Below are positions 3,801 to 29,435 of a stretch of DNA of 64,000 bases, piece after piece. Source of the DNA: Platanthera guangdongensis (lineage: Eukaryota; Streptophyta; Magnoliopsida; Asparagales; Orchidaceae); NCBI GenBank assembly GCA_039583875.1, contig CM077159.1, positions 4,963,371 to 5,027,370 on the forward strand, given 5' to 3'. Under the pieces are notes generated by a model. That model worked only from the letters and a program-made list of their open reading frames with translations, was not told the DNA's origin and made no database searches. The position numbers were made by a program, and so were the translations under genes. Every line of letters starts with the position of its first letter. The first letter of the stretch is position 1.

Positions 3801-3882
3801 CGATGTCAAACCCTGCATCAAACTTCATGGCGGCGAGGACAGCAACTGAAGACGGCCATGGTACCTGCAAAAAACTTAACAA
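823..3882 (-). pseudogene. Extra 3' ORF of element A (env position), frameshifted
   Basis: A long extra gene between pol and the 3' LTR, of unknown function. Probable start is the ATG at 3859 or the one at 3828. In order it shows: an N-terminal globular domain (about 3860-3140) holding FLADVVGKVLLAK at 3411-3449; a Pro/Ser-rich linker (about 3110-2640); a hydrophobic helical stretch near 2577-2430; an Ala/Val-rich part (2286-1738); a Lys-rich block and an Arg/Gly-rich block with SRRGGYRG (1653-1290); and a charged C-terminal tail ending at 823. The N-terminal block is shared with the 3' ORFs of C, D and G, so this is a real gene family. Reading it needs about four or five frame changes, mostly one extra base in a short run (for example near 3590 and 2545). 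No signal peptide or clear membrane anchor is visible, so a classical envelope is not supported. Confidence 0.75.
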
Positions 3883-3970
3883 ACAAAACGACCAAGGTAG
3901 AACTGTTTGGAGGGAAGAAAATTTCTGCAGAGAAATTGAAAGCGCAAGAGAGAACGACGGCGAAAAATGA

Positions 3971-3980
3971 GTTTTATATT
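3971..3980 (-). promoter_or_regulatory. TATA-like box upstream of A 3' ORF
   Basis: Minus strand reads AATATAAAAC. It sits directly after the 3984-4275 array and about 112-143 nt before the two candidate ATGs at 3859 and 3828. Elements C and D have the same order. Promoter function is inferred. Confidence 0.5.
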
Positions 3981-3983
3981 AGG

Positions 3984-4275
3984 GTTCGACGCAGAAATGG
4001 AAAGATCGTTGAACTCAGTTCGACGATTGAGGCTTCTAAAGGAATCTGAAGAGACTCCAAAATCGTCGATCTCCGTTCGACGATTTGGAAAGGCGTCGAG
4101 CTCCGTTCGACGATCGTTCAGTGAACAAAATCGTCGAGCGCCTTTCGACGATCGTTGACCAGAAGAGATAGTCCATACTATCAAAGGAGCGCTGAACTCA
4201 GTTCGACGATTCAGGAAATCGTCGAACTCCGTTCGACGATCTTTGTGAAAATCGTCGAGCGCAGTTCAGAGATCA
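3984..4275. repeat. Dyad array between pol and 3' ORF of A
   Basis: Seven or so units built as ATCGTCGA, a short centre of about 7 bp, then TCGACGAT; the two arms are exact reverse complements in the best copies (for example 4062-4084). Words match the U3 array of the same element. It fills the gap between the RNase H stop (4313) and the 3' ORF. Confidence 0.9.
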
Positions 4276-4312
4276 GAGAAATTTTAGACACTAAGGAAAA
4301 TCAGAATTTTGC

Positions 4313-4850
4313 CTAGTCTTGGTCATTTTTAGCTTTCAAAATCTTGGATATTATTTGAGACTTCCTCCATCTAACATTCCTAACTGATTTAGGAAAGAAG
4401 GTGTGTTTCTTTTCATCCAAAGGCTTGGTGAAAATATCTCCCCTTTGTAAATCAGTTGGGATATATTGCAGTTCAATTTTATTCTTTTCAACATTGTCCC
4501 TTAAGAAGTGATGCCTAATCTCTATGTGTTTTGTCCTACTATGGAGGACTGGATTTTGAGCTATGGAGATAGCACTTGTATTGTCACAAAAGATTTTTGA
4601 CTTCTCTAAGTTGTAACCATAGTCTAGGAGTTGATTTTGAATCCACAGAATTTGTGAACAACAACTGCCTGCAGCCATATATTCAGCTTCAGCAGTTGAA
4701 GTTGACACAGATGTTTGTTTCTTGCAAAACCAAGAGACAATGTCTATCACCAAGGAAACTGACAAGTTCCACTGGTGCTTTTCCTGTCAATTCTGCATCC
4801 AGCATAATCAGCATCAGAGAATCCAGTTAACTCAAATGCTGAATCTTTTG
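4313..4850 (-). pseudogene. pol: Copia RNase H, element A
   Basis: RNase H would remove genomic RNA during reverse transcription. Visible blocks are FSDADYAG (near 4821), STAEAEYMAAG, CDNTSAISIA and the C-terminal KHIEIRHHFLRD, all typical of copia RNase H with its acidic catalytic residues. The frame breaks twice near 4745-4757, by an extra C and an extra A, so the domain is split over two frames. Pol ends at 4313 and the spacer array follows. Confidence 0.88.
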
Positions 4851-6020
4851 GATACCAGAGACCTAGATTTGGACAACTTTTAACATACCTAAGAATCCTC
4901 TTTACTAATGTGAGGTGTGACTCTCTAGGGCTAACTTGGAATCTAGCACATATACATGTAGCAAACATTATATCTGGTCTACTAGCTGTAAGATACAGTA
5001 AAGAGCCAATCATTGCTCTATATGTTGTCTGATCAACAGGTTTCCCATGTTCATCAGCATCCAATACAGCATTGGTAGGCATGGGCGTTTTCATACAAGA
5101 TGCCTCAGACATGCCAAATTTCTTAACCAGCTCATTAGCATATTTGGTTTGAGAAATAAAGATGCCCTTCAGCATGTTGTTTGACTTGCAATCCTAGGAA
5201 GAAGGATAGCTCACCCATGCTACTCATCTCAAATTGTAGAATGCATTAGGTTAGAAAACCTTCTGCACAAGTTTTGAGTCAGTAGAACCAAAAATGATAT
5301 CGTCTACATAGATTTGTACTAGTAGGGTATGGGACTTATGGGTTCTAATGAAAAGAGTTTGGTCTACTCTACCCCTTATAAAACCATTTTCAAGAGAAAG
5401 CATGCTAGGGTCTCATACCATGCTCTAGGAGCTTGCTTGAGACCATATAATGCTTTATTTAATCTAAAAACAAAATCAGGATGAGTTGGAGAGATAAAAC
5501 CTGGAGGTTGTCTGACATAGACTTCCTCTTTGATGTCTCCATTTAAGAAGGCACTCTTGACATCCATCTGATAAACCTTGAAGCCTTTGTGAGCTGCATA
5601 AGCTAAAAATATCCTGATGGTTTCTAATCTTGCAACAGGTGCAAAGGTCTGGTCGTAGTTAATTCCTTCTTCTTGAGAATATCCTTGGGCAACTAGCCTT
5701 GCCTTGTTCCTTATTATTACTCCTTGATCATCCAGTTTGTTTCTGAATACCCATTTTGTTCCAACAATGGAATGATCCTTAGGCTTTGGGCACTAGTTCC
5801 CATACTTTGTTCCTCTCAAATTGATGCAACTCCTCTTGCATGGCAATGATCCAGTGTGGATCGTGCTCTGCATCTTGAATGGACTGAGGTTCAATTTGAG
5901 AAAGAAGCAGGTGTGCAACAGGTTTTGGTTGACCTGATTTCTGGTTTGCACACCAGCTGAGATTTCTCCAATTATTCTGGGAAATTGGATGGTCTCTTGA
6001 TGTTACTAAATCAACCAGGG
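4851..6020 (-). pseudogene. pol: Copia reverse transcriptase, element A
   Basis: The RVT_2 type reverse transcriptase copies the element RNA. Visible in order: WIIAMQEELHQF, a segment with [44 protein letters not shown], the catalytic [10 protein letters not shown] near 5302, and MIGSLLYLTASRPDIM. Frame breaks: an extra A near 5790, a lost base near 5388, and extra bases near 5255 and 5235. The catalytic Asp pair is intact. Most lesions are one-base gains in short runs, so part of the damage may be sequence error. Confidence 0.88.
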
Positions 6021-6951
6021 GGTGTTGATTGTTCACCAACCTGTGTTGTTGTTTCCTCTTGTGGTACAACAACTGGCTCTTCAGGTTGTGCTTCAATATG
6101 TTGAGCATTGCTTTCATCTTCACTGCTTTCATCCTCTTGAGCAACCTGTAGCTTGTTCATATCTTCAACTAGAGAGTGTTCCTGCAAAGGTTCTATGGTA
6201 GAAGAAATCTTCTCCTTGAAAGACATGTTAGTTTTATCAAAAGAAACATGAACAGATTCCTCAATTTTCAATGATGATTTATTATAGACCCTATAGGCCT
6301 TGCTGATCATGGAGTATCCCAGAAACACTCCTTCATCAGCTTTGGCTTGAAATTTTGCTAGATATTTCTTATCATTATTGTGAATATAGCAAATGCAACC
6401 AAAAATTTTGAAATAGTCAACTTTAGGTTTCTTCCCTTTGAGTAATTCATAGGGAGTCTTTCCCTTCAGTTTATGTATCAGACTTCTGTTCAGCACATAG
6501 TTGGAGGTGTTCACTGCCTCTGCCCAGAAGGATAGAGGTAGATGAGCATCTGACAACAATGTAGTGGCAGATTCAATAAGGGTTCTATTTTTCCTTTCAA
6601 CTACCCCATTTTGTTGAGGAGTTCTAGGAGCTGAGAAAGTATGCCTGATCCCTTCACTCTGGCAGAACTCTTGCATAAGAAGAGAATCAAACTCTGTCCC
6701 ATGATCACTTCTGATCAGGGCAATGTGAGTATTGAACTCAATCTTTATACATTTGAGAAACTCTGTCAGACACTTAAAGTTATCAGACTTCTTCCTTAGA
6801 AAGAACACCCAAGTGAATCTAGAGAAGTCATCTACAATCACTAAAGTGTAGGATTTCCCTCCTAGGCTTTGTACTGTGATGGGTCCAAATAGATCCATGT
6901 GTAACAGATACAATATCCTAGGTGAATCACTCTTATTAAGTGACTTAAAAC
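6021..6951 (-). pseudogene. pol: Copia integrase core, element A
   Basis: Inserts the cDNA into the host chromosome. The DDE residues are visible: HMDLFGP, RSDHGTEF and QQNGVVERKNRTL. The downstream GKxPxVxxxxxFGC block (KKPKVDYFKIFGC) and GYSMISKAYRVYN are typical of copia. An extra T in a TTTT run near 6951 separates this domain from the upstream pre-integrase region, and an extra C in a CCCCC run near 6021 separates it from reverse transcriptase. No residue needed for catalysis is lost. Confidence 0.9.
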
Positions 6952-7545
6952 TGTTTCTTAGTTTGCTTGCCTAATTGACAAGCCTTGCAGAGTCCTTCCT
7001 TCTTGTAGGGGCCAGAAGGTAGTCCTCTAACAAGGTTGTCCTTGGAGAGCCTAGCAATAGTTCTAAGGTTTAGGTGTCCTAATCTCTTATGTCATAAAAC
7101 ATTTGGTCTACAAACTGAATTGAATAAACAGATATCTATAGTAGTTGAAAGAAAGTCTACTAGGTAGATGTTACCTTTCCTTTTACCTGTCAACACAGTT
7201 GTGTTGTCCTCTGACTTGATTTTGCATGAAGTTTTGCTGAAGGTTCACCTGGTATCCTTCATCACATAGCTGACTGATGCTGATTAGGTTGTGCTTCAGT
7301 CCTTCCACATATGCTACCTTCTTGAAGGTTACAGAACCAATCTGGACTGCTCCATATCCTTTAGTTTGTCCAAAGTTGGAATCACCAAAGATAACTTTGG
7401 GTCCAAGCTTGGCTCTAAAGGAATTTAGGTTGTCCTTGTTCCCTGTCATGTGCTTAGAGCACCCACTATCCAAATACCATTGCTGGTTAGATGTTGGATA
7501 GGTCTTCACCTGCACATGAACCAATTCACTTATTTTTGACCCAGT
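6952..7545 (-). pseudogene. pol: Copia protease and gag-pre-integrase, element A
   Basis: The aspartic protease that would cleave Gag-Pol. The catalytic triplet is in WYLDSGCSKHMTG, followed by ISISQLCDEGYQV. Downstream lies the gag-pre-integrase zinc region (HKRLGHLNLRTIARLSKDN and CKACQLGK). The Trp normally before HKRLGH is a TGA stop at 7092-7094. An extra A in an A run near 7545 separates the protease from gag. Confidence 0.85.
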
Positions 7546-9603
7546 TTACCTTGGGCCTAGGTTGATAACCTTTAAATTCAGAAATGAAAGATATCCCTGG
7601 CTGACTCTTATATCCTTCAGGATGATATCTCCTTGGAGGTATAATCCATTCAGTATAAGGGTTAAAGGTTTGGGATGAAGAACCCTTAGGGTTCAATTTT
7701 GACTTGCCCTTTAAAAAAATTCCAGAACTCTGACCTCTGTTCGACGATCTTGGAGCTGCGTTCGACGATCGTGGGTCCGATTGTCGAGCTCCGTTCGACG
7801 GTCGACTATGGCTGAGGTCAGGTATATGGGATCGTCGAGCAGCGTTCGACGATCTTGGCTGAGATCGTCGATCAGCGTTCGACAATTTGTCCTGAGATCG
7901 TCGAGCTGCGTTCGGCGATCGTCGATCTTCATTCAGCGATCGTCGATCTCCATTCGACGATTTGTGCTGGACTTTAGTTTTCTGAGGCAGATCAGAATTT
8001 TTCCTGGCAACCTCTACAACTCCCTTTCCCTTGTCATAAATGAACTTGATAGGGGTTGTTAGAACAATAGGTTGGCTGGATGAGGCACCCAAGCCCAGTG
8101 TACTGTTGAATCTTGAGTTCACTGTGCTTGTGATGTCCATCAGCTTGATGCTTCTCCCATTGAGAGATTCTTCAAGCTTCTTGGCCTCAGAGAGCTCACT
8201 CTTCAGTGAAGCTATCTGTTCCCTATAGTTCTCCAACTCCTGAGAGAGTTTGAGGTTTTCTGATTTTAAAGCATTTTGTTCAGATAATTGATTTCTGAGA
8301 GAGATGATCTCTTTCTCAGACTTTAGCAGGTCTAAACATAGTGCTTTAAATTCAAGTTTAAAATCTTCTGAAGTGAAATCAAAAGAGCTGATTACCTGAT
8401 CTTCTTCAGGTTGAGTCTCTGAGTCTGACTCTGACTTCTCTTCCTCTGAGTTGTGTTGTGAGGCATTGATTGCCATCATGTAGAACTCCTTTTCCTTTGC
8501 ATCATCCTCATCATCACTTAAGCTGGAAGAGGCTTCTGACTCCTCTTCAGTCTCACTCCAGGATTCAGCAACAAATCCTTTCCTTGTGTGCTTATTTCTG
8601 CTGGAGGAAGGTTTGCTATTTCCATTCCTTTTGGAGTCCTTCTCCTTTCTTCTTTCTTTTCTGTCCCTTCTGTCCTTGTTCTTGTTTTCTGGACAGTCAG
8701 GAACCATATGCCCTGGTTTCCTGCAACCAAAGCAAATAATGTCTTTGCTATTGCCAATGGACTTGTCATACCTTGGCTTATCCTGCTCCTTGTATGATCT
8801 TCTTCTGAAGTCCTTTCTGGACCATCTTATAGAATCTTTTGGCCAACAAGCTGAGAAGTTCATCATTGGCTGTTCCTTTTTCTTCAGGCGGATCCTCAGT
8901 TGCCTTGAATGCTATAGTCTTCTCCTTTCTTGTGGCTGGTGAAGCAGCCTTCTGTTCTTCTTCTCTGTTCTTGATGAGTAGCTCATAAGATTTGAGCTTA
9001 CCCAACAAGGCTTCAGTGGTGATCTCATTCAGACTTCTGGCATCTTTAATTGGCCAGATTCTTGAATCCCAAGTGCTGGGGAAGCACATTAGGATCTTGT
9101 CATTGAGTTCTGTCAGTGAGATCTCTTTGTCTAATGTCCTCAGTTCACTGACAATTAGACTCAGTCTGTTGTACATGTCTCCCACTGACTCTGTTTCTCC
9201 CTTCTTGAAGTTCTCATATTGGGAGATGAGATGGGATCTTCTGTCCTTTCTCTCATCAGCTGAGCCAGAGACAATTTCTGAGAGCTTGTCCCAAATTTCC
9301 TTGGCTGAATTGCATTCAGCTACTTTTTGAAAAGATGTCATCTGACATTGTCTGAGCTAAAATGTTCATTGTCTTGGCATCAGCTACTTTCCACTTTTTG
9401 ATGTCAACATCTGTTCCTGATGGAGGTGGAACAGCATTTGTGCTTGTGCCCTCTGGAGGTCTTGGACACACTGTCAAAACAAAATTAAAAATGTCTTCGT
9501 CAATAGAATTCATGTAGAGTCTAATCCTTGCTTTCCAAAGTGCAAACTTTGACAGATTGCACACTGGAGGTCTGGTGCTAGCATAATCTTTGTTTTGGGC
9601 CAT
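7526..9603 (-). pseudogene. gag: Gag of element A
   Basis: Structural protein that coats the RNA. Start ATG at 9603 (MAQNKDYASTRPPVC). The N-terminal copia Gag domain (LYMNSIDEDIF, DERKDRRSHLISQYENFK) is followed by a zinc knuckle CFGCRKPGHMVPDC (CX2CX4HX4C, 8693-8734), an acidic Ser-rich stretch, a coiled coil with heptad leucines (about 8370-8170) and an Arg/Ser-rich repeat region (7740-7964) where the family DNA array is read as protein. Two frame breaks, an extra T near 9331 and an extra base near 8812, split it in three. The related copy at 57545 reads through the first site. Confidence 0.9.
7740..7964. repeat. Dyad array inside gag coding region of A
   Basis: About eight units of the ATCGTCGA...TCGACGAT words lie inside gag and are translated as SSNADRRS-like repeats. 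The array sits just before the segment leading into the protease. Element G has its own array at the matching place (49865-49935). Confidence 0.9.
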
Positions 9604-9714
9604 GATTTGTGCAAGCTAAATCTAATAATAAAATACAAAAGAAGGATCTAGTTTGGGATCTTGGGGTTCAGGTGTTAGCCTGTACAACCAAACATATATG
9701 GTATGATTAACCAA
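9604..9714 (-). other. Leader of element A
   Basis: About 110 bases between the primer site and the gag ATG. No ORF. It would hold packaging signals, but none can be pinned down by eye. The plus-strand copy in element I (57430-57544) is clearly related. Confidence 0.6.
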
Positions 9715-9730
9715 CCTCCCTCTGATACCA
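9715..9730 (-). promoter_or_regulatory. Primer binding site of element A (tRNA-iMet)
   Basis: Minus strand TGGTATCAGAGGGAGG, two bases from the LTR end. The first twelve bases fit the initiator tRNA-Met 3' end used by plant copia elements. Confidence 0.9.
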
Positions 9731-9753
9731 ATTGAAAGGGGAAACTAGATCAG

Positions 9754-9790
9754 ATATACTCTAAAGGGGGGGGGGGTGAATAGAGTATAT
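9754..9790 (-). other. C-rich-loop hairpin near LTR 3' end (A)
   Basis: Ten-base arms ATATACTCTA (9754-9763) and TAGAGTATAT (9781-9790) are exact reverse complements around a loop TTCAC plus a C run on the minus strand. Families D and E have other arm sequences that also pair. Confidence 0.75.
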
Positions 9791-10042
9791 GGTGCTTTTT
9801 AAAATACAAAGAAAAACTTTTGCAAAGCTTTACAACAATTGTTGTAATGAGTGTAAGCAGGGAAGCAGAAATAAAACTAAACACAAAACTAAACTATGCA
9901 AGAGCTAAGCACAAGAAAATCTAGGCCAGAAACAAAAAGAAAACAAGCAAAACCAGATGACACAAGGAATTATAGTGGTTCCCCAAACTTGGGTACATCC
10001 ACTCTTCTACCACCCTAGGTAGGAATCCACTGCAGGATGAGT

Positions 10043-10165
10043 TGATCAGGTGTCCTGGGCACCAATGAGCTTTTGATAAGGTGCTCAAAAACCAAAACAG
10101 ATTTTTTGATCAGGTGTCTTGCCACCAATGAGCTTTTGATAAGGTGCTCAAAAACCAGATTCAAA
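10043..10165. repeat. 65-bp tandem duplication in A LTR
   Basis: GATCAGGTGTC...CTCAAAAACC occurs twice, starting at 10043 and 10108, with few differences. Element I has the same pair at about 57017-57130, so the duplication is a fixed part of this LTR family. Confidence 0.85.
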
Positions 10166-10828
10166 CTTTTGAAGGGAGTTTGAAAAACCCTTTACAGAGT
10201 GGGGGTTGAGAGAGTTATGACAGTCTTCTCTTTTCTCAATCAACTGAGAAGACTAAGTGGATTGATTTCAAAGCTCCCCCTGAGTCCTTGATCTTCAGGA
10301 AGATGAGCTTTGTTGAGGGTGATAGGCCTTCAAAGATAGATCTCCAGCAAAAGTTGATTTCAGCAAGCTGAAATGTTGAGTGTCTGGAGTCTTGAAATGA
10401 TGTTGGCCTTGAACACTTTGAAAGCTGAAGAGATCTGAAGAATGTTTGAAAGCTTGATCTCTTCTTGATGAGTGTTCTTCTGAATTCTTGCTGACAGAAT
10501 ATTTTTCAGAGTCTCTGTATATTGAGAGGTGTCCTATTCTTGTCAATCTCTATCTATTCTTGTCTATTCTCTGTCTTTATTCAAAAACATTCTATCTTTT
10601 ATTCTCTGAGTCTGAATAGAATATTACTCTGTCAAAGATAGCCATTGGTCTGCATTGATTACAGCCTTAATTGCATAATCTGTTCTGAAGGAAAGTCCAC
10701 TGAATTGTTCCTTGAAAAATTCCTTGAAACTTGCTCCAGAAGTAAATGAAAACGGCTGGCTGATCTTCTGAATTAAATGCAGAATAACTTCTATCTGATT
10801 TGAATTTGAATTCTGAAAGATAACTGAA

Positions 10829-11119
10829 ATCGTCGAACTGAGCTCTGCTATCGTCGAGCTGAGCTCAGCGAACTGGAAAATGCAAGCAGCAAAGAAATCG
10901 TCGATCTGAGCTCAAGGATCGTCGAACTGAGCTCAGAGATAAGGATCCAGTGCAGAGTCAAAATCGTCGACCTGAGCTCAGCGATCGTCGACCAGAGCTC
11001 GATGATATTATGAGGTTTGAGCTCAGCGATCGTCGAATGGAGCTCGACGATCTGTCAATAGTTGAGCTAGACGATCGTCGACCGGAGTTCGACGAAACGT
11101 CGTGCTGAGCTCGACGATT
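10829..11119. repeat. U3 array of ATCGTCGA words (A 5' LTR)
   Basis: The same array as at 184-475. Two of the three LTR differences fall in it: GACGAT to GATGAT near 11003 and TTCGCC to TTCGAC near 11092. Confidence 0.9.
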
Positions 11120-11287
11120 TGGACTTAGTCTCCAGAAAAACTTGGGTCTTCAGGGCAGCTTCCAATCCTAGCCTTCTAACCCTTAGACTCAATTCTAATT
11201 GACCTATTAAGCTATACAGAAGGTCAAAACACAGATTCCTAGAGACATAGTGATCCTGACCCAAATTAGTAATAGGGTGTTCCAACA

Positions 11288-12262: not shown

Positions 12263-13216
12263 TGAAAGAATTGGTTTCAAGATACCTAAAACACCTAGAG
12301 GGGTGGGGGGTGAATAGGTACAATTCTTTTTTACTTAGGCAGATAAATATTATATCACTGCTAGATCACTTATGCACTATTTATCACAACACAGATTTAA
12401 AATAATACATCAACACAGATGACACACAGTTTTATAGTGGTTTCTCAAGTGATGGGTACATCCACTTTCCTCCTTCGCCTATCAAGCAGTGTATTAGATT
12501 TGGCCTAACTTCCTTCTTTCTTCTCAGATCCTCAGATCTTATATCTCAGAACCTTGAAAGGTCCCTACAGCTCAGACTTCAATAAGTTCTACAACTCAGA
12601 TTCTTCCAGAGAACCCTACCTCAGATTGAGTCCACACTCCTACAACTCAGGCAATCAAGCCCTACCTCAGCATCTTCAATAGACCTACAACTCAGAGAAA
12701 TTAATCTCCTACCTCAGGCACTTAGCCCTACCTCAGCCTCTTCAACATGCCTACAACTTAGAGAAATTAATCCCCTACCTCAGGCACTCAGTATTACCTC
12801 AGCCTTTATAGATTTAGGCTTACAACTTAAAGAGATAACTCTCCTACACTCAGATCTATATAAGATCCTACAGAGAAAAGTGATTATAAAAATATAAATC
12901 CTTCACCCAGGTTGAAAGAGAATGGGTTGAAGGTTTCTTGGTCAGTTCTTGATAGATCTGACAGCTTTAGATCCAACCTGTCTTAGCTTCTTCAAAGCTT
13001 CTTGAATTTGAACAAAGTAAGGTTGATCTTCTTGGAGATGATCTTCAATCAGCTCCCTTCTTCTATTCAGATGTGGCTCCGAATTCTTCTTGCAGATTTG
13101 TTCTTGATCTGCCCTTAAAGACTTGTTGATTTCTGGATGAAGACTTCTCTTCTTCCTCTTAGTTGTTGTTTATCTCTTCTTCTTCACACACACCTTTTTT
13201 TGTTGATAGAATAGGT

Positions 13217-13226
13217 CTTTATATAG
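13217..13226 (-). promoter_or_regulatory. TATA box of C LTR
   Basis: Minus strand CTATATAAAG, about 146 nt downstream of the U3 array edge. The same ten bases form the TATA box of D. Confidence 0.75.
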
Positions 13227-13371
13227 ACCCCCATCCGAGGTTACCGGCTGATCCGGTTCCTAACGGCCTTCTGACAGCTCTGACAGATGCAACAACATTG
13301 TTAGTTATGATAGCTGTCAAGTCTTTAGTCATGATACTTGATCCTTCATTGAACTTCAACTCAGCAGCAAA

Positions 13372-13832
13372 GTGTCGAGAAAATACTTCAAATGTGTCGA
13401 CACAAATAGATCATGTGTCGACACAATCCTTGGTGATGTCGACACAGCTCTCATAATGTCGACACAACTCTTCTTTTTCTTCTTGACACGGCTTCTATGG
13501 AATGTATCGACACAAGTCCTGTGTGTCGACACAACAGCTTCTAGTCTCGACAAAGTTGATGTCGACAGAATTCTAGAGTGTGTCGACACAAGTCCTGTGT
13601 GTCGACACAATTGTTGTTGACAGAATTCTGGAATGTGTCGACACAAGTCCTGTGTGTCAATACAGTTGTTGTCGACAGATTTTCTATGTGTCGACATAAA
13701 TCCTACGTGTCGACACAATCTGGCTCCTGGTGTCGACACAGCCTTTCCCAAGTGTCGACACAATTCTTCTCAGGTGTCGACACAGCTTTTCCCAAGTGTC
13801 AACACAATTCTTCTCAGGTGTCGACACTTGTA
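13372..13832. repeat. U3 array of GTGTCGACAC (C LTR)
   Basis: About 16 intact GTCGAC cores in 460 bp, most as the 10-bp palindrome GTGTCGACAC, with a few decayed copies (GTGTCAACAC, TGTCAATACA, TGTATCGACA). Spacing is irregular, 15-40 bp. Confidence 0.93.
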
Positions 13833-13965
13833 CTTAGAAAGTTTTTCTGCATTTCCTTAACCTGCACATTAAAACTCAACACAACATAAAATACACATTG
13901 ATTAATATCATTGAGTTAGGTAAGGCTTCTCCAAATCCGGTACACATTTTCCAATGTACCCAACA

Positions 13966-14226: not shown

Positions 14227-17128
14227 CTAGGACTGATTAGGCTCCTTGATGACAATGTCTTTTCCAGATTGAATACTTGCTTGTACATTGGCTTCAGTGT
14301 CTTCAGCTGGCTTCTTTCCTTTAAGATCCTTTTTCTTGAGTTCTTCATCCTTGATATTTTGCCTTTCAAAATAATGATAAGGCTTTGGAAAGTACTTGCT
14401 AGGCTCCACAGAGTTAGAGGTATTTTTCCAGCTTTGATATCTCTTTTGAATTGAAAAATGGCATCTTGTCGTTTATAATACTTGCTCCATTCTTGTTCAG
14501 AGTACCATTTACCTCTATCATGCATGTTGTCTTTAACTGCTTGTCAGGCAGTGAGAATAATATTTCTGGAGGTGGGACTCCATCTTTCAAAATCAGGTTT
14601 TAACTCAGCCTGCTCTCTAAACCTTTTCTTAGAAAGTTGAGCTTCTTGCTCTCTTTTCAAGGCTGCTTCAGACATCTCAACCTTCTCAATAATCACATTC
14701 TGAACCTCCTGTGGAGGACTGTACATTTGTTGTACGGCAGATTGAATGACCTCAAAATCAGCAGGTGGATAAATAATGTGAGCTACTTCCCGCTGAACCC
14801 CTTCATTGTGAGCAGGTTGAATTCCTGACTCACCAGTATTATCATCATCACACATGGGAGGATAACCAAGAGTTACTCTGATAGCATTAGTTATCGATTT
14901 AGCATGTTCGGAGCCTGCATTGACTAACACTCTCTCCCCCTTTATGACTTCTCATTCAACATGGTCTTGTAGATCATCTTTTTGAAATCTAATCTGGTTA
15001 GCTAGGTAATTGGTGCCTTCCTTATAGAATGATTTGAATTTTTGTAGTTGATCAGCAATGACCTTTTGAGATTCTTGGATAGCAGTGCTAACATCTGTCA
15101 AATTTGCTTTGAGTTATTTATCAAACTCAGTCTTTTCTTTATCAATGTTTACAGTGAAAGCAGTTGTTGTATTCTTAAGTTCTGTTACAATAACATTATG
15201 TGATTTTGTCAGATTGTCATTCATTCTGAGTTGATTTTCCAAAACATAGCCTTGTTTCACTACTATATCATCTATTTGAGTTTTGGCTTCCACTTGTTGC
15301 TTTGCTAAATATACTACAACATTACCTCCCTTATGGAAGCAATCTGTCATTTCCTTTTTATGTAAATTCACTTCAAATCTGATAGATTTAATATCTTGTG
15401 TCAGCCGAAGTTGCAATTCTTTATTGCTCTCATCAACATATTTTTCTAGGCTTGTCTTTGTTCATCTAACTTTACTTGCAGTTGCACCAGTAGTGAATTG
15501 AAATCTACTGTTGGAGCTGGAGTTTGTGGGACAGTCTGTAAGGCTTTCTTATAGTCAGAGCTTCTCTTCCTTAGCTCCATAAGCTTTCTCTTCTTTGCCC
15601 TAGAGGCTTCTTCATCTTCTGAGGACTCAGATGAGCTTGTTATGTCCACTGTATCTTTTGGACTAGATGCTATAATGGGCATCTCCTTATCAGTCCTTAG
15701 CAGCTCCCCCTTAGTTCTTGCACCTAATAAATCAGGAAAAGTTCTTCTAAAGTAACTTTTTTTGCATTTGTATTGGAGGTATAACTGTCTCTTTAGCAGA
15801 AGGTTCTCCTTCAAATTCCAAAGTTTCTTCCCTGGTAATGACATCCTCAGGGACATTGTCTTGGTGATTTTTATCAATATCAGTCATAGGCACATCCAGT
15901 GCATCTTTCTCATATCTATAGCAGTTTAATTTATGTCCAGTAGTACCTCAAGTGTAGATTGTGTAGCTGATTCACTGTCCAATGCAACTGTGTGTACAGG
16001 TGGTTGGTGCTCATGAGCTCCCCCTGACGGTAATGCCTCTTGTTGAGCTGAAACTGGAGAAAGCTCATTGGCTCCCGCTCATTAAGCTCTTCCTGGACCT
16101 GAACTTCTGAGATGTTGGTGGCAGGAATCTTCTCCCCCTGCACCGGATCATCATCTACAGTCCCTGGAGCAGGTGATTTCCTAGTATTCTCTGGTCATTC
16201 TTCATCTGAGCTGAAGACCACTTCTTCTTCTGAATCACTGGAAGATTCAGTTGTCTTGTGGATTGGTTTCTTCTTTTGCTGTATCTGTTTTGTTTGTTTC
16301 TGTGGAGTAGAAACATCTTTGGTCAGAACTCTATCCGATCTTGATAGTATTCTCAAATCCATTCTTCTCATATGATTGATCTTAGATCTTGCAATTTGAT
16401 TCATTACTTCAGGAATATTCTCAACCAGACATAAACTCAGAATTCTACCCAGATTGGGTTTCTTAAGACTTTCTTTGATTTTGTCAAAAATAACAGCAGA
16501 CTAATTTGTTTTCACCTTGAATATAATTCTGGTCATCAAATTGAACATGTAGGCTGAAATCCTATCATGTCCCCCTGACTTGCATAGAATTACTTTCCCT
16601 ATAATTTCAGAAAGAAATTTACCCTCGGAATTCATCCCCTTCTTATTCATTGAGGATCCAATCTTGGTTGTGGGATCTATTCCACACCATTGGAGTGCTT
16701 CTCTTGTCATGGAAGATGTTATTTCATCTTCTTCTTTAACCCTGGGTAGCTGAAATGTTTTACTTAAACTCTTCTAAGTGAGTTTGACATTGGTTCCTTG
16801 TACAAATGACTTAATTTTTACCCCCTTTGAATCCAGAGATGCCGTCGTGTAGAATTCAAGAACTTCCTTTTTCCATATCCTTGTAGGTTCTCAGACCAAA
16901 TACTCCAATCCATTTTCTGTGATTAGGGTAATCACAGCTTTGAGTTCTCTAGATCCACTCGCAAACACATCGTGAACTAGTTCATAGCCCTCGTTAATGT
17001 TTTCTCCAGCTTTGGCGCCATTAGGGATGAGAGAGATTTGAAGAGAAGTGAGATGAAGGTCTGTCGACACAAAGTTTTGGTCTCGAGAATTTGGAGAGCG
17101 TAGTCGCCAGGGTTTTACTTCCACCTAT
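14227..17128 (-). pseudogene. Extra 3' ORF of element C, broken
   Basis: Same protein family as the 3' ORF of A and D; function unknown. Likely start ATG at 17021. The N-terminal domain includes SRELKAVITLITENGLEYLV and FLSEIIGKVILCK (16579-16617). A Ser/Thr/Glu-rich linker (about 16400-15950), a long helical stretch likely to be coiled coil (about 15480-15060) and a C-terminal block follow, with RWSPTSRNIIL near 14560 and KYFPKPYHYFERQ near 14390; D has matching EIWSPTSKSLIL and KYYPKPFSYQRR. Stops and frameshifts occur throughout (for example TAG/TGA near 16890, 16780 and 16500). The gene was cut just upstream of its start by insertion of D. Confidence 0.75.
17124..17128. other. Left target duplication of element D
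   Basis: CCTAT here and CTTAT at 29050-29054 flank D; one mismatch, as expected for an old insertion. Confidence 0.7.
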
Positions 17129-17850
17129 TGAAAGTTATTAGTTGTCTGCCTAAATCACCTGGAGGGGGTGAATAGGTGAGATGTGCGTCTTTTTGTGCAA
17201 TAAAAATTAGATCTATGCACAGAACTATCTACCAATCACTCACAAACGAAGCAAGATTTATAGTGGTTCCCCAATCTTGGGTACATCCACTTTCCCTCAC
17301 CGATCTAGCAATAAACTAGACTCGGCTACTCCACTATCTCGGATTGAAAAATCAATCCGACACCTCGGAACAACGTTCCTACAATCTTGATCCACAAAGA
17401 GGATCTACACTCGGAAGATAAAACTTCCTACAATCTCGGAGTCAAAAGCTCCTACACTCAGAGAAAACTTCTCCTACAATAATGCAATAAAATGTGTATG
17501 AAATACAAACAAAGAATCTCTATCAGATCTACAAGAATCGGCATGGATCTTCTTCTTCTAGACTTTTCGGCTTTATCAGAGAGGTGAAGAAAATCTCGGC
17601 AAGATCAGATCTGGATCTTCTTGACTTTACACGATCGAATAGAAGATGAGAAGTTGTGCGGCAACTCGATCTGTAAAATCTTCTTAATCTGAATCCTCTG
17701 AAAATGAAAACCCTAGCCGGATGAGAATCGGCGGCAGCGGCTTCTTGGAGAGAGAGAGAGAGAGAGGATTAGAAAACTTAGAGCAAACCTTTGGCTGCAA
17801 AAACTTCTGATAGAATTTCTTCTTGCTTAGGGTTTGTCGGTTTGACAAGA

Positions 17851-17860
17851 CTTTATATAG
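17851..17860 (-). promoter_or_regulatory. TATA box of D 3' LTR
   Basis: Minus strand CTATATAAAG. It lies 121 nt from the near edge of the U3 array (17981). The other LTR has it at 27847-27856 with the same spacing. Confidence 0.8.
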
Positions 17861-17980
17861 GATTAAAGATAATCTGTCATAATTAATTCATAATAAGGGA
17901 CACGTGGACCAATCACGTCAAGGCTCATTAAAGAATCTGTTAAATTGGATTTAACAAAATTTTCAGAAAACTGAAGTAAT

Positions 17981-18726
17981 ATACTCGAGTGAAGAAGATA
18001 CTACTCGAGTACATTATATAAATACTCGAGAGAGATGAAAATAACTACTCGAGTATTTTGAGATAGTTACTCGAGTAACCTGAAGAGAACTACTCAAGTA
18101 TAATCTTGAAGAAAATTAAGAAGTTGATCAGCTACTCGAGTACTAAAAATACTTACTCGAGTACTTAAGGAATTACACGTGAAGTGGAGTTAGACTACTT
18201 GAGTACAAGAAATACTACTTGAGTAAATGAGAATGAACTACTCGAGTGGTAGATGAACTACTCGAGTCAGGGACTTAGAATATTTTCTGAACTGGGATTC
18301 TGGGTTACTCGAGTAGTGAAGTTGAACTACTCGAGTGAATAAGAACTACTCGAGTACATGGAAATAGCTACTCGAGTAATTGACTTAGAGAAATTATGAG
18401 GGAAGAAATTCTGGTTACTCGAGTATAAATACTCGACTACTCGAGTAGTAAGTGAACTACTCGAGTACATGACTTAACTACTCGAGACAGAATATATAAA
18501 CTACTCGAGTACTATAAAGTATTACTCGAGTAATTTACTTAGAATATATTTATAGAGGGAAAACTGTAAACCCGAGAGTAAGAGGAAAACTACTCGAGTA
18601 GTTGTCTTAACTACTCGAGAGCCATAAATTAACTACTCGGGATCTATCATCCTTACTCGAGTAAGAGTAATTTTACTCGAGTATAAACAGAGCTATTCAC
18701 TCGAGTAGGTATAGAACTACTAGAGT
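17981..18726. repeat. U3 array of TACTCGAGTA (D 3' LTR)
   Basis: About 24 intact CTCGAG cores in 745 bp, most within TACTCGAGTA or ACTCGAGT palindromes. Decayed copies are mainly ACTCAAGT and ACTTGAGT, the changes expected from CpG deamination on either strand. Confidence 0.95.
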
Positions 18727-19053
18727 AAAACACTTAGTAAAATTTTCTTAGATAGAATTCTCTTCTCTTTGGTGAGACCACCATCAAGTCTTTTCCAATA
18801 AGTCCTAGTGCTTGAATATGAAGTGTATCCCAATAGAGAGACTACACATGAGTCAACACCTTGGATCACACAATGAGGGATTACATTGTATGGTCTTGTG
18901 TTTGGTGACCCATTATAGACTGACATTGGTCTACACTTGCCATTAGATTCTTGGAAACACATAACTCAACCAAAGCATCAAATACAACTTAATTCATCTT
19001 AGTTCAAGGGTGACTTCATCAAATCTGGGTTAATGTGGATACAATACCCAACA

Positions 19054-19274: not shown

Positions 19275-21624
19275 CTACATGTCTTTCTTCTCTTGTTGTC
19301 TCCTCTGATAGCTGAAAGGCTTGGGGTAGTACTTAGGAGGTCTTGGAGGAGCAGCAGGGTTATTTCTCCCAAATTCTTTGTCATATAGTCTCCTCTTGGT
19401 CATAGATTTTTCATATAACTCTCATTCCTGTGAACTGTAATGAATGTTCCTGCTTTCATGGAAGTCCATAACAAGTTTGAGAGTATCCAAGATGAGGGAC
19501 TTAGAGGTAGGAGACCAGATCTCTACAAATTCTGGAGCTTTCCTCTTATCAGCATCAAAAACTGGAATGGACCTGCTGGCAGAGGGACCTACACCATATT
19601 TTCTTTTCTTTCTTGAAGTCTGTATCTCAGGAGGAGCTTGAAGAAAAATATTTGCAGGGTCATCCTCCCAGATTTGCGCATAAGAGTCTGGAGGAGGGCC
19701 TTCCTGGCCTTCAGGTCTGGGAGAGAAAGTAGGTTGCAGAGGAGGAGCAGGAGCAGCAGCAGCTAAGGGGTTGAGATGATGAGGAATGATATTTGGATCA
19801 GCAGCAAATTTAGGAAGGATTTGATTGTGCATCCAGACAGCAGTGTCATATGTATGGAATTTAACAGTCTGAATTTGTGCTAAGACATCATCATGGATTT
19901 TTATCAATTTGGCTTTCCAAAGCACTTGCATGGCAGCATCTTATTTTTCTAAGTATTCTTTCACCAAATTCTCCCCCTTTCTGACTTCAATATATAGCTT
20001 AGAGATGACATCTTCTTTGAAAATACCAACCTCTTCACAGATCTTCATCTTTGTAGATTCAGCTCTTTTATCCGTTTCAGATTACCAGCAAGGGTGTCAC
20101 CTTACTCCATCACTTGACCAACACTAGTAATAGTGTGGTCTAGAGCCTTCCCACCAATTTGGAAAAGGTGTCTTAGCTAGTCAGTGTTGTGTTGGATTTC
20201 TGCAAATCCTCTGCTCATCTCAGTCTCTAGAGCAGTAACTTTATCAGTAATAGCTTTTAGGGAAGCATCAAAGTAGGTTCTCTGTTATTGAAGCAGAAGG
20301 ACAACTTGAGTCATCAAATCATTTGTTGAAGCAGCAGTAGCAGCAGGAGGAGCACTAGAAGAGGGAACTGGAGGAGGAGGAGCTACCCATGGAGCTATTT
20401 CTGTAATGGAGACTGTGCTCTGTGCTCTAATAGTATGAATCAGGGCATCCCCTTCATTAGTGACTGAGGGTATGGAGAAGTCCAGATTCCTTAGAGGAGC
20501 TTCAGCTGGCTCAGGGGATAGCTCATCATCAATGACAATGGTCTCATCCTGCTCTTGGTTTGCAACAGGAAACTTTGCTGGAGAAGGAGTATGTGCTAGA
20601 GATAGTACTGGAGACTCTGGTGGAATTTTAGTAGTAGTTTCCTTCGGAGAGAGAGGAGGAGGAAGATCATTTGCAGTCAATTCTTCTATCATCTCATTGA
20701 TAGCAGATTCTGTGGAGAGTAGAGTTTCTTGAAGTTGTTGGTCAGATGGAATCTCTTCTGGAGTCTGAGGAGGTGGAGGAGTTGCTGCTGGGAGTGTAGG
20801 AATCCTTACTGGGATAGAAGGAGCAGGCTCCCCCTCAATAGGTGCACCAGAGGAGCTGGCAACCTGAGGTAGAGAGGGAGATGTGGTCTTGTCCTCTATG
20901 TCTGGTACTTCTGGAACCATTGCAGACTGAGAGGGATTCTGCAGTTTTAACTCCCATCTTTGTATGGAGGATATATAGACTTTCTTCATGTGGTGAAGAA
21001 CAGTCCCTTTAGAGAAACTGAAGATTTCTGGGTTGAGTTCATGGAGGACTAGAGAGATGATTCTGGCATAATTAGGGGCTTTAATGCTGCCTTTAATCTT
21101 GTCCAGGATCATCATGCCAAACTGGAAACTCTTCCTGCATACTATGGCTTGCATGAAGTCAAAGAAGTAAAGAGGAAAGTCTCTGATAGAGTTGGTTCTG
21201 CATAGAAGGACCTTTCCAATTATATCAACCAATAACTTACCTTCAGCATTCATATCTGACCTCTTGATGTACTGTGCAGCAGTAGAAATACCACAGAATA
21301 AACAAGTCCTGTCTGATTCTTCTTCCCCAAGATCATCATCTTCGTCTACAATCAGCAATCGAAGAAGTTGAGATACTGAAGTTTTGGTAAGCTTGATTTT
21401 GATACCTTTGACCTTTGATTTGAGAACGGCACCATGGCGCTTAACTTTGACATTTCTGAAGAACTCGACAACTTCTGGAAAGAGGATTCTGCAGGGTTCT
21501 TGAAGAATGAAGGTGAGTCCGGCAGTGTCGAGTAGGATCATCAGGTTATGAAAGTCGTCGGAAGTTCGGCAATGCCGGCGGCAACCAATTCGAAACCAAC
21601 GCTAATTTTTGAAGAGGCGGCCAT
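19275..21624 (-). pseudogene. Extra 3' ORF of element D
   Basis: The best preserved copy of the extra gene. Likely start ATG at 21624 (MAASSKISVGFELVAAG), with a one-base frame break near 21560, then an open frame from 21541 to 20285 (418 codons). N-terminal domain: GLTFILQEPCRILFPEVVEF and LLVDIIGKVLLCR (21197-21235), plus a helix-rich part to about 20960. A Pro/Ser/Thr-rich acidic linker follows (20900-20340). The C-terminal part lies in other frames: EIWSPTSKSLIL near 19500 and KYYPKPFSYQRR near 19320, ending at 19275. Function unknown. The domain order matches A, C and G; sequence similarity is low outside the named blocks. No signal peptide or membrane anchor is seen. Confidence 0.78.
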
Positions 21625-21760
21625 GATTCAGAAACCCTTGGAAAATTTCGGCGGGGAGAAAGAAATGGCGCGGCTCTGCAACTTGTTGTTGGAAGGCGAA
21701 GAGACAATCGACTATTTGAGAGCGGAAATGATTTCATGTAGGATATTGATGGAATTTCTT

Positions 21761-21770
21761 ATTTATATAA
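21761..21770 (-). promoter_or_regulatory. TATA-like box upstream of D 3' ORF
   Basis: Minus strand TTATATAAAT, continuing AAG. It lies 118 nt from the near edge of the spacer array and about 137 nt before the ATG at 21624. The array-to-TATA distance in both LTRs of D is 121 nt. Promoter role is inferred. Confidence 0.55.
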
Positions 21771-21887
21771 CCCAAGGTTTATGTCTAAAGAAAATAAAAA
21801 TGAAGAAATCATACCTTAGAAGTGGTGGCATAAGCCTCGGGTTGCGTATAAGAAAATTTTGAATTAGTAAGAAAAATGTCCCAGCAT

Positions 21888-22115
21888 ATACTCGAGTGAG
21901 TTGATATTACTTCGAGTAGATGAAATGAGGTACTTGAGTAGATGTGTCTGGAAGTACTCGAGTAGGTATGCTGAAGTACTCGAGTAGGTGAGTTGAGGTA
22001 CTCGAGTAGGTGAGTCTGCTACTCGAGTAGGTCAAGTGGGCTACTCGAGTAGGTTAAGAGGACTACTCGAGTAGGTCATTATTCTTACTCGAGTAGGTTG
22101 CTTCTTACTCGAATC
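21888..22115. repeat. TACTCGAGTA array between pol and 3' ORF of D
   Basis: Eight intact CTCGAG cores and three decayed ones in 228 bp, the later ones spaced at about 21-24 bp with AGGT following. Same word as the D LTR array, different from A and C. Confidence 0.93.
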
Positions 22116-25439: not shown

Positions 25440-27040
25440 ATTACGAGTGGTCTTCCTCATATTGCTAATATGTGGGATTGCAGCAGTTCTGGGATTAAAC
25501 TAGCAATCGATGGCAAAGTGACCAATTTTGCCACAACACCGACAGTCAAATCTGTTGTATCTTTGCCTTATGTTCTCCTGCTTGGCCTTTTGAGATTGTG
25601 GTCTAGCAGGGGCAGCACTTTTGGAGGAAGAAGCTTAATGATGATGACAATCACATGTTTTCTTCTCCTTCACTGGCTTTTCTACAAGAGGCTTTGCCTT
25701 TGGTGCTTTCTTGAAGTTATGACCATGATTGAAAGGGCCATAGCTCTAAAGAATCACTTCTTCATAAGGTGCCTTAAAGACACTTTCACCAAAGTTTCTG
25801 GGGCAAGTCCATCCTTGATAACGGGACTTTGGCTCTACAAAGGTAGGCCTAGCAAAGTGTCCGTAGGATGAGTCAAGATCAAACTCATTTGACGGAAATA
25901 TGACCTTTTTGAAAGAGGTCTGATCTTGAGGGTCTTTCCCCTTCTCTTTGGCCAAGGCCTTCTTGGCGGCCTAATTCTTCCGTTGGACCTTATTTCTCCT
26001 AGAAGATTTGCTAGGAGCCTCTTTATGGCCTAGTCCAGCACCCTTGGCCTTTGCTGAGAATTCAGCAACGAGTGGAAGAACATTCTTAGGTTTTGAGAAA
26101 CTTTCAATAAGTTTTCTCTCAACAATGAGTTGTTCTTCCAACTCATTGATGATTTTCTCCTTTAGATCAAGGTGCTCAAGAGGTTTGTTGTATTCTTCAA
26201 TAACATTATTGAATTTCTCTTTGAGTGAGTCAGTCTTAGCGACTTCTTCTCTCAAGATGCTTTCTTCAGCTTTTAGAGACTTTATCTCTTTAGACTGAGT
26301 TTTCACGACACGGCGACATTTGTCGTATGCCATGATCAGCTCATTGTACTGGGCCATGAGTTCAGACTCATCATCAGAAGAGCTGTCCTCACGATCATGC
26401 TCAGAAGCTTCAGATTCTGAAAGAGTGTGGAAACCACTCGTCACCACACATCTTCCCAAAACCCCGAGGTAGTAGGAAGGGGGGACGGGGGTACATGAAC
26501 ACAAGGTAACTAAATACTGCCTTGTGGGGCTGTCATTTAATTCTCCGTTAGTGAAGACTCTACCATAGACCCTTAGGCCATTTACTATCCTTAAGAAATT
26601 CTCAAATGTGTCAGCATGGTGTCCTTGTTTCCTTGTCGGAAGGCTTCATACTTTTGATTTAGAAGGGACCTTCTATCATCCCTCACTTCTTATGTACCTT
26701 CCATCAAGGTAACTAAAGACTGTCACATCTCCTTTGCAGACTGGCAGTGGATCAGGTTTTGCAGCATAGAGTCATCGACTGCACTTGCTATAATGTTTTT
26801 GGCCTTTTTATCTAATGACACAAGTGCAATCTTGTTTTTATCTAGATCCATTAGTTTCTTTGGAACTTTCTTGGTTGGATCTATTGTGGAGACTGTCATG
26901 GGAATGTAAGGAAATTCTTCAACTATCATGAAGATCCTAGGATCCACAGCTTCCATAAAGAATTTTATTCTCTCTTTCCACATGGGAAAATTATTCTTGG
27001 TGCACAAAGGAAGCTTGGCAAAATCTTTAGTCTTGTCCAT
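25440..27040 (-). pseudogene. gag: Gag of element D
   Basis: Start ATG at 27040 (MDKTKDFAKLPLC). N-terminal part has NFPMWKERIKFFMEAVDP, followed by a coiled-coil region rich in Glu/Lys/Leu (about 26390-26060) and a zinc knuckle CRCCGKIGHFAIDC near 25500-25545. A Trp is TGA near 26722 and a Gln is TAA near 26690; the frame changes near 26560. The Gag is more distant from those of A, B, G and I than they are from each other, so D is a separate lineage. Confidence 0.85.
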
Positions 27041-27106
27041 GTTTGGTAGATCTCAAAAGACAACTATATAAGGATCTGATCAAGGTGTTAACCTTTTAAT
27101 GATCAA

Positions 27107-27122
27107 CCTCCCTCTGATACCA
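27107..27122 (-). promoter_or_regulatory. Primer binding site of element D (tRNA-iMet)
   Basis: Minus strand TGGTATCAGAGGGAGG, two bases from the 5' LTR. Confidence 0.9.
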
Positions 27123-27846
27123 ATTGAAAGTTATTAGTTGTCTTCCTAAATCACCTAGAGGGGGGTGAATAGGTGAAATATGCGTCTTTTTGCAGAATAA
27201 AAATTAGATCTATGCACAGAACTATCTACCAATCAATCACAGACGAAGCAAGATTTATAGTGGTTCCCCAATCTTTGGTACATCCACTTTCCCTCACCGA
27301 TCTAGCAATAAACTAGACTCGTCTACTCCACTATCTCAGATTGAAAAACCAATCCTACACCTCGGAACAATGTTCCTACAATCTCGATCTACAAAGCGGA
27401 TCTACACTCAGAAGATAAAACTTCCTACAATCATGGAGTCAAAAGCTCCTACACTCGGAGAAAACTTCTCCTACAATAATGAAATAAAATGTATTTGAAA
27501 TACAAACAAAGAATCTCTGTCAAATCTGCAAGAATCGGCCTGGATCTTCTTCTTCTAGACTTTTCGGCTTTATCAGAGATGTGAAGAAAATCTCGACAAG
27601 ATCAGATCTGGATCTTCTTGACTTTACACGATTGAATAGAAGATGAGAAGTTGTGCGACAATCTCGATATGTAAAATCTTCTTAATCTGAATCCACTAAA
27701 AATGAAAACCCTAGCCGGATAAGAATCGGCGACGACGGCTTCTTGGAGAGAGAGAGAGAGAGGATCAGAAAACTTAGTGCAAAAATTCGGCTGCAAAAAC
27801 TTCTGATAGAATTTCTTCTTGCTTAGGGTTTGTCGGTTTGATAAGA

Positions 27847-27856
27847 CTTTATATAG
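27847..27856 (-). promoter_or_regulatory. TATA box of D 5' LTR
   Basis: Minus strand CTATATAAAG, 121 nt from the U3 array edge. This is the likely genomic promoter. Confidence 0.8.
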
Positions 27857-27976
27857 GATCGAAGATAATCTGTCATAATTAATTCATAATGAGGGACACG
27901 TGGACCAATCACGTCAAGGCTCATTAAAGAATCTGTTAAATTGGACTTAACGAAATTTTCAGAAAACTGAAGTAAT

Positions 27977-28727
27977 ATACTCGAGTGAAGAAGATACTAC
28001 TCGAGTACATTATATAAATACTCGAGAGAGATGAAAATAACTACTCGAGTACTTAGAGACAGTTACTCGAGTAACCTGAAGAGAACTACTCGAGTATAAT
28101 CTTGAAGAAAATTGAGAAGTTGATCAGCTACTCGAGTACTAAAAAGACTTACTCGAGTACTTAAGGAATTACATGTGAAGTGGAGTTAGACTACTCGAGT
28201 ACAAGAAACACTACTCGAGTAAATGAGAATGAGCTACTCGAGTGGTAGATGAACTACTGGAGTCAGGGACTTAGAATATTTTCTGAACTGGAATTCTGGG
28301 TTACTCGAGTAGTGAAGTTGAACTACTCGAGTGAATAAGAACTACTCTAGTATATGGAAATAGCTACTCGAGTAATTGACTTAGAGAAATTCTGAGGGAA
28401 GAAATTCTGGTTTCTCGAGTATCAATACTCAACTACTCGAGTAGTAAGTGAACTACTCGAGTACATGACTTAACTACTCGAGACAAAATATATAAACTAC
28501 TCGAGTACTATAAAGTACTACTCGAGTAGTTTACTTAGAATATATTTATAGAGGGAAAACTGTAAACCCGAGAGTAAGAGGGAAACTACTCGAGTAGTTG
28601 TCTTAACTACTCGAGAGCCATAAATTGACTACTCGGGATCTATCATCCTTACTCGAGTAAGAGTAATTTTACTCGAGTATAAACAGAGCTATTCACTCGA
28701 GTAGGTATAGAACTACTCGAGTAAAAC
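27977..28727. repeat. U3 array of TACTCGAGTA (D 5' LTR)
   Basis: Same array as in the 3' LTR. Some copies decayed in one LTR are intact in the other, for example ACTCAAGT at 18104 against an intact copy near 28090. Confidence 0.95.
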
Positions 28728-29049
28728 ACTTAGTAAAATTTTCTTAGACATAATTCTCTTCACTTTGGTGAGACCAGCATCACGTCTTTTCCAATAAGTC
28801 CTAGTGCTTGAATATGAAGTGTATCCCAATAGAGAGACTACACATGAGTCAACACCTTGGATCACACAATGAGGGATTACATTGTATGGTCCTGTGTTTG
28901 GTGACCCATTGTAGACTGACATTGGTCTAAACTTGACATTAGATTCCTGCAAACACATAACTCAACCAAAGCATTAAATACAACTTAATTCATCTTAGTT
29001 CAAGGGTGACTTCATCAAATCTGGGTTAATGTGGATACAATGCCCAACA

Positions 29050-29060
29050 CTTATTTATAT
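29050..29060 (-). promoter_or_regulatory. D target duplication overlapping a TATA-like box of C
   Basis: 29050-29054 (CTTAT) is the right target duplication of D. The minus strand here reads ATATAAATAAG, the same string as in the D spacer TATA. D thus landed on the presumed TATA box of the C 3' ORF, about 110 nt before its ATG once D is removed. Confidence 0.5.
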
Positions 29061-29103
29061 GTTTCTAATCAAAGAAGGTCAAAAGGCGGGTATAAATACT
29101 CTT

Positions 29104-29412
29104 ATTGTGTCGACACTGTTGGGATTGTGTCGACACAGACTACTAAAGTCTCGATAGAGAATTACTATTCTATGTGTCGACACCAATTGCGATGTGTCGA
29201 CACAAATAATCTTAAGAGCTTACACTAATCTCTGCGTGTCGACATAGACGACTGTATGTGTCGACACCAACATTTAAGTGTCAGTATAGCTATGTGTCGA
29301 CACCAAATTCTGAGTGTCGACACAATCTTCTGGATGTGTCGACAGAATTTTCTTATGTGTCGACACCATCTACTAAGTGTCGACACCTTTTTCTTTAAGT
29401 GTCGACACACAT
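29104..29412. repeat. GTGTCGACAC array between pol and 3' ORF of C
   Basis: Twelve GTCGAC cores in about 300 bp, most as GTGTCGACAC, flanked on the right by the C RNase H stop. Same word as the C LTR array at 13372-13832. Confidence 0.93.
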
Positions 29413-29435
29413 TTACTTCGTCAAATTTATCATTC

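Follow-up and report, generated by a model that had tools for sequence, protein, structure and literature searches.

A candidate internal promoter upstream of the 3' accessory gene in three Sirevirus-type Ty1/copia retrotransposons of an orchid

The closest described counterparts of the locus analysed here are the Sireviruses, in which boxes of a repeated palindromic word have been reported not only in the LTRs but also ahead of ENV (Bousios et al. 2010, PMC2829016, used throughout in the passages available). According to these passages, the boxes coincide with CpG islands in the LTR, upstream of ENV and in the 5' part of ENV, the LTR TATA box lies downstream of them, and a CGG-CCG core is present in 12 of the 13 published words, with Tnd-1 as the exception. 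Linker boxes occurred in nine of nine RM elements with ENV and in none of four without it; six further ENV-bearing Sireviruses have no boxes, which counts against a promoter role. The same passages propose an internal ENV promoter, crediting Peterson-Burch and Voytas 2002, state that it was not conclusively identified, and leave open the route by which the 3' gene of linker-bearing Sireviruses is expressed. For the Ty3/gypsy element Grande, an accessory gene 'transcribed from its own promoter' has been described (Gomez-Orte et al. 2013, via the available part of PMC11963269). Because both accounts precede the present analysis, the idea of an internal promoter is not new for plant retrotransposons.

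The window, that is, the whole stretch of 64,000 nucleotides of Platanthera guangdongensis DNA analysed here, contains three elements, D, C and E, in which a linker between pol and a 3' ORF can be inspected (Table 1). Judged from its sequence, the D segment 21624-22115 probably serves a Sirevirus-type Ty1/copia element as the promoter module for its 3' accessory gene, which would be co-regulated with the LTR. A copia-type reverse transcriptase is encoded in a D pol piece (RVT_2, 3.3e-21), and the pol regions of the three elements share 67-70% pairwise nucleotide identity. The PPT AGGGGGAG and the AT/TG attachment site are exact in D and E, with the variant AGAGGGATATTG in C; multiple copies of the PPT follow pol, within linker and ORF (three in D, four in C, two in E), and gag-pol holds one copy in D and none in E. 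All three LTRs carry the polyC integrase signal ATTCACCCCC, and in D and E the LTR/PBS junction reads TTTCAATTGGTATCAGAGG; the PBS region of C falls outside the part found in the window. The published CGG-CCG core is absent, the cores being CTCGAG, GTCGAC and CGTCGA/TCGACG. The assignment of D, C and E to the Sirevirus-type Ty1/copia elements is based on the reverse transcriptase, PPT, attachment-site, integrase-signal and LTR/PBS features.

Table 1. Positions of the elements, word arrays, TATA boxes and open reading frames discussed in the text (numbered from the first letter of the window)
Feature	Position	Strand	Remarks
Element D, Ty1/copia retrotransposon	LTRs 17123-19053 and 27119-29049	minus	LTR pair 95.1% identical
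D 5' LTR	27119-29049	minus	word array 27978-28723; TATATAAA from 27855 downward
D 3' LTR	17123-19053	minus	word array 17982-18727; TATATAAA from 17859 downward
D linker array, TACTCGAGTA, ~22-bp spacing	21889-22115	minus	3' of pol stop near 22192
D linker TATATAAATA box	21760-21769	minus	between array and ATG
D 3' ORF ATG	21622-21624	minus	reading frame of the D copy broken soon afterwards
D 3' ORF, open stretch of 438 aa	20288-21601	minus	weak PF20167 match, 24.6 bits, cut-off 45
D 3' ORF, later open stretch	19425-19940	minus	NLS-like KKRK
C linker array, TGTCGACA word	29100-29420	minus	C is the element receiving the D insertion
C linker TATA box ATATAAATAAG	29050-29060	minus	split from the downstream part by D immediately after
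Remaining C linker: leader, extra TGTCGACA word (17062), ATG at 17021	17019-17122	minus	
C 3' LTR, TGTCGACA word, 16 core copies	12264-13965	minus	TATATAAA from 13225 downward
Element E	1-11287	minus	third element with its own words, TCGTCGA/TCGACGA half-sites
E linker array, ATCGTCGA-N7-TCGACGAT dyads	4003-4258	minus	lower edge placed by eye
E linker TATAAAA box	3972-3978	minus	ATG candidates 3859, 3828
E 5' LTR array, outer dyad same as linker	10825-11125	minus	
E third array, inside open gag frame, outer dyad same as linker	7720-7965	minus	

The first-pass annotation had described eight copies of a word, a TATA-type box and an ATG between pol and the 3' ORF of D, and all three were found again on recounting: eight linker copies fit YACTCGAGTR, seven are exact TACTCGAGTA (spanning 21955-22095), and ten are within two mismatches, with successive gaps of 42, 24, 22, 22, 21, 22, 22, 22 and 20 bp. 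Beyond these seven, the window holds 34 exact copies, all in the D LTRs (16 + 18), which brings the count to 41 with none elsewhere. When one mismatch is tolerated, there are 61 matches against 1.07 expected from shuffles, and 59 of them fall within the LTRs and linker of D, the other two lying at 46284 and 59019. The number of words in D is far beyond chance.

Element C has the same plan with a different word. Beside the 16 core copies of its LTR, TGTCGACA occurs 12+1 times in the linker, and it is absent from the 3' ORF and from the 1172 nt of pol that are present. D lies inside C, flanked by ATAAG/ATAGG, and its insertion point (29049/17122) is directly downstream of the C linker TATA box. 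In E, half-sites number 11 per LTR stretch, ten in the linker, nine inside gag and none in the 3' ORF. The outer dyad ATCGTCGA-N7-TCGACGAT is common to LTR, linker and gag while the centre varies, as would be expected for a dimer-binding site or for the stem of a hairpin. Over the 642 nt of LTR that E has in two copies, identity is 99.5%, marking a young element. Its gag array is in frame and encodes basic RSSNAARRS-like repeats, a possible double constraint on one stretch of DNA; no TATAWAW follows this array on the minus strand of E gag-pol.

Each element thus has one word, used in its LTR and again in its linker, and the three elements have three different words. Within the compartments counted, a word is confined to the LTR and linker of its own element (plus gag in E), strays apart: one 7-nt E half-site in D gag-pol, one TGAGCTCA in the E 3' ORF and one CTCGAG in the C linker. 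The proposal of a linker promoter co-evolving with that of the LTR is supported as far as the words are concerned, given that each element has its own word in both places and the three differ. A palindromic high-copy word in the LTR and upstream of the 3' ORF is seen in all three elements with a linker in the window, and the order of array, TATA box, leader and ATG is the same in each; the sample is these three linkers, and patterns and window sizes were picked after inspection of the sequence. Three further pieces stand outside this count. By eye, a pol/3'-ORF linker is missing within the window from a second E-family copy (55893 onward) and from element F (46880-51700), and a pol fragment at 39.3-42.2 kb has a pol end with no array. 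The second E-family member, on the plus strand (55893-58330), has the same LTR words and ends within gag. In element F, GTCGAC-type words form a small CpG-rich group at 49853-49935, in a decayed gag/protease region; the position of this group resembles that of the E gag array, and similar words occur in the probable F LTR near 47083-47264. Searches for relatives returned four matches by word pattern in viral contigs, with one word pair each, and nine stretches by peptide pattern, none of which encodes a pol relative.

A TATAWAW box is located between the main array and the ATG in all three linkers. The frequency of such a box in dinucleotide shuffles is 0.136 for D, 0.106 for C and 0.013 for E, the C value referring to the upstream part of its stretch (the downstream part has no TATAWAW), and in random element-body segments of equal length it is 0.050, 0.036 and 0.034, respectively. 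All three together were obtained in one of 20,000 draws of random body segments (5e-5), for a pattern that was carried forward from four TATA patterns tried and picked after inspection of the sequence; the stricter TATAWAWA is absent from the E linker. Taken alone, the D box is unremarkable, and it is notable only because C and E also have one. From TATA to ATG, the distance is 145 nt in D, ~106 nt in C (for the empty site, minus D and one duplication copy) and 119 nt in E. Two details count against a promoter: an upstream ATG at 21737 in D, near the expected start site, and the position of the C word at 17062, which falls between TATA and ATG.

The spacing of array and TATA box had been presented as a likeness between linker (118 nt) and LTRs (121 nt). 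Recounting gave 119 nt in the D linker and 122 nt in both D LTRs, so the match is real in D and is missing from the other elements: the distance in C is 47 nt in the linker vs 168 nt in the LTR (measured from the last near-exact word; shorter from a degenerate copy), and in E it is 24 nt in the linker, while a scan of 500 nt of the LTR revealed no TATAWAW. A conserved array-to-TATA spacing was consequently rejected, and the likeness within D is probably due to chance, since C and E do not show it. The E LTR also has no CpG downstream of its array (0 in 9751-10750), which speaks against a simple promoter role, and with TATAWAW missing from the scanned part as well, the linker anatomy is not obligatory for a working promoter.

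An origin of the linker promoter by copying from the LTR, the other suggestion made at the outset, did not survive the alignment of linker and LTR that had been proposed as its check. With the words masked, the D linker matched its own LTR at p=0.02 through decayed words, and C and E gave no significant match (p 0.32 each; letter shuffles, 100 each). Non-array sequence common to linker and LTR was not found, and the LTR-copied promoter was rejected. When the linkers are compared with one another, D and C align best, words aside, at the TATA box itself (shuffle p 0.12, not significant), a leader match links D and E (p=0.05), and C and E do not match (p=0.28).

The distribution of CpG singles out the same region. 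In the interval that starts at the array edge and takes in the first 200 nt of the 3' ORF, all three elements are CpG-rich compared with the remainder before the 3' LTR: 22 CpG in 461 nt vs 5 in 2371 nt in D, 10 in 301 nt vs 11 in 2856 nt in C (part downstream of D only) and 12 in 341 nt vs 1 in 3017 nt in E, stray words contributing one of the ten in C and two of the 12 in E. Between array edge and ATG alone, there are 9 in 261 nt (D), 4 in 101 nt (C, downstream of D) and 7 in 141 nt (E). The D contrast is set by the comparison with the 3' ORF and is weaker against gag-pol, with an observed/expected ratio of 0.44 in gag-pol vs 1.08 in the linker after the array. In E, 137 of 146 CpG lie in four islands totalling 1369 nt (the two LTR arrays, the linker and the gag array), leaving 9 in the other 9918 nt; as the E LTRs are nearly identical, this emptiness is very probably older than the insertion.

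Most word centres in the D and C arrays follow one another at 19-24 bp or at about a multiple of that distance. The best-fitting period is 20.5-21.8 bp in four of the five arrays (21.6 in the two D LTRs, themselves copies of one another, 21.8 in the D linker and 20.5 in the C linker) and is weaker in the C LTR, where 10.8 fits best and 21.6 almost as well; each of the five arrays surpasses random placement (p 0.001-0.002) under a random model without tandem duplication. With array, TATA box, leader, ATG and local CpG retention in place, an internal promoter is the best reading of the linker anatomy. The words, their spacing in D and C, the TATA boxes and the CpG retention are present, and the plan is repeated in three families with different words. 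The anatomy in three of three linkers and the CpG retention support such a promoter; two of the arguments made at the outset, from spacing and from LTR copying, fail. We infer factor binding, a start site in the linker and a separate mRNA, in the following manner. A dimeric DNA-binding factor would occupy the array of palindromic words, spaced by about two helical turns, and, once bound, would activate a TATA-box core promoter 24-119 nt downstream, giving a short mRNA that encodes the 3' ORF protein. The LTR word would be bound by the same factor, placing transcription of the genomic RNA under its control too; accessory gene and genome would be co-regulated because the LTR carries the linker word.

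The main rival to an internal promoter is expression of the 3' ORF from a spliced RNA initiated in the LTR, the array and TATA box being incidental or otherwise used, an alternative that we judge distinctly unlikely. Both D (TTTTATTTTCTTTAG at 21785) and E (TTTTTTGCAG followed by G at 3865) do have an acceptor-like site ahead of the ATG; the D site passes a pyrimidine threshold reached by 1.2% of 1821 minus-strand YAG and the E site fails it; the single acceptor-like YAG in C 17000-17122 is poor. The C LTR (12264-13230) has six AGGTRNG donor-like sites (five AGGTAGG, one AGGTGTG), but crude tests found no such donor in D 27040-27855 or in E 9600-10700. For BAGY2 and Athila, the available passages of PMC2829016 cite spliced ENV mRNAs, so the route has precedent, yet it leaves the presence of array and TATA box in three of three linkers unexplained. 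It is also improbable that the arrays serve as RNA or DNA secondary structure (hairpins, sources of small RNAs, signals for reverse transcription or packaging), with some other route leading to translation of the 3' ORF. The linker arrays fold strongly as RNA (z -7.5 in D, -4.4 in E), the E dyad has the shape of a stem-loop, and for maize Sireviruses, small RNAs have been reported to map over palindromic clusters in the LTR (available part of PMC10760457, citing Bousios et al. 2016). Strong folding is, however, expected of any array of self-complementary words and thus does not separate the readings, a single D or C word, being a contiguous palindrome of 8 to 10 bp, cannot fold into a hairpin by itself, and the helical-turn spacing suits protein binding. 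A structural role would in any case be compatible with a promoter. Least probable, and very much so, is a reading of the arrays as neutral or silenced relics that reverse transcription has homogenised between LTR and linker, the TATA boxes being there by chance: each TATA box taken singly is weak evidence, and once an element has inserted its words do degrade (5 substitutions across 230 bases, counted in words that the D 5' LTR has intact), but array, TATA box and CpG are kept in three families, the flanking sequence is not homogenised, the young E holds nearly all its CpG in the islands described above, and the D LTR pair differs less in the array zone (25/756) than elsewhere (65/1175), a difference that shows no selection because intactness in one copy was what defined a word.

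If the linker is an internal promoter, the nature of its product becomes of interest. The 3' ORFs of D, C and E are all interrupted in the window. A PF20167 match like that of D reaches 16.5 bits in an E piece (cut-off 45). The 438-aa stretch of D is 57% identical over 312 aa to a protein of Platanthera zijinensis, the single relative common to three protein searches, two of which scored the best 7990 and best 7987 candidates; by eye, the start region of the orchid relative P0001 resembles that of the D 3' ORF. Among the 14 pieces examined, a single one from each element (D, C and E) holds an NLS-like KKRK, which is weak evidence given its frequencies in shuffled pieces (0.012, 0.145 and 0.176, respectively). 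In a search for a transmembrane segment, as expected of an envelope protein, simple hydropathy on these broken frames gave no 19-aa window above 1.2 in four D and six C pieces and values up to 1.68 in four E pieces. The AlphaFold model of the protein was too poor for use (mean pLDDT 41.9). A speculative extension, which we regard as unlikely and whose logic would resemble that of foamy virus Tas or VANC, is that the 3' ORF encodes a nuclear dimeric DNA-binding protein recognising the word of its own element. Production of this protein would begin at the internal promoter, and the protein would then open or protect both arrays and switch the LTR on, forming a self-encoded two-promoter feed-forward circuit in which word and protein co-evolve by family. 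Should the product indeed bind the word of its element, D, C and E would be wrongly labelled as having an 'envelope' gene, and an abundant group of plant retrotransposons would carry a self-encoded switch.

For the expression of the 3' gene, the fixed location of the TATA box in all three families yields precise predicted start sites and hence a testable idea, and the family-specific words offer a clean test of specificity, namely which protein binds which word. The literature listings and passages covered contained no report of a TATA box in a Sirevirus linker. Relative to the literature examined, the three linker TATA boxes, the words without a CGG-CCG core and the gag array of E appear to be new.

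Two more distant systems are analogous in logic only. VANDAL elements are DNA transposons. In their VANC anti-silencing system, as in the elements described here, a short motif is repeated in non-coding regions and varies among related TE families, whereas VANC carries DUF1985/DUF287 and the D 3' ORF has a weak PF20167 match (available part of PMC5735166). Foamy viruses likewise have a second promoter before a 3' gene that is activated together with the LTR promoter, Tas binding both; these are animal viruses whose two promoters are little related in sequence, and no homology is claimed (available part of PMC7390438). Among plant elements, Grande differs in superfamily, and shared palindromic arrays were not found in the available description. 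The Sirevirus RM boxes remain the nearest counterpart, being alike in the high-copy palindromic word, its presence in the LTR and upstream of the 3' gene, the use of one word per element and the CpG islands. They differ in that D, C and E have words without the CGG-CCG core, that the TATA box is reported for the LTRs and that no array inside gag was found in the available passages of the published description (PMC2829016).
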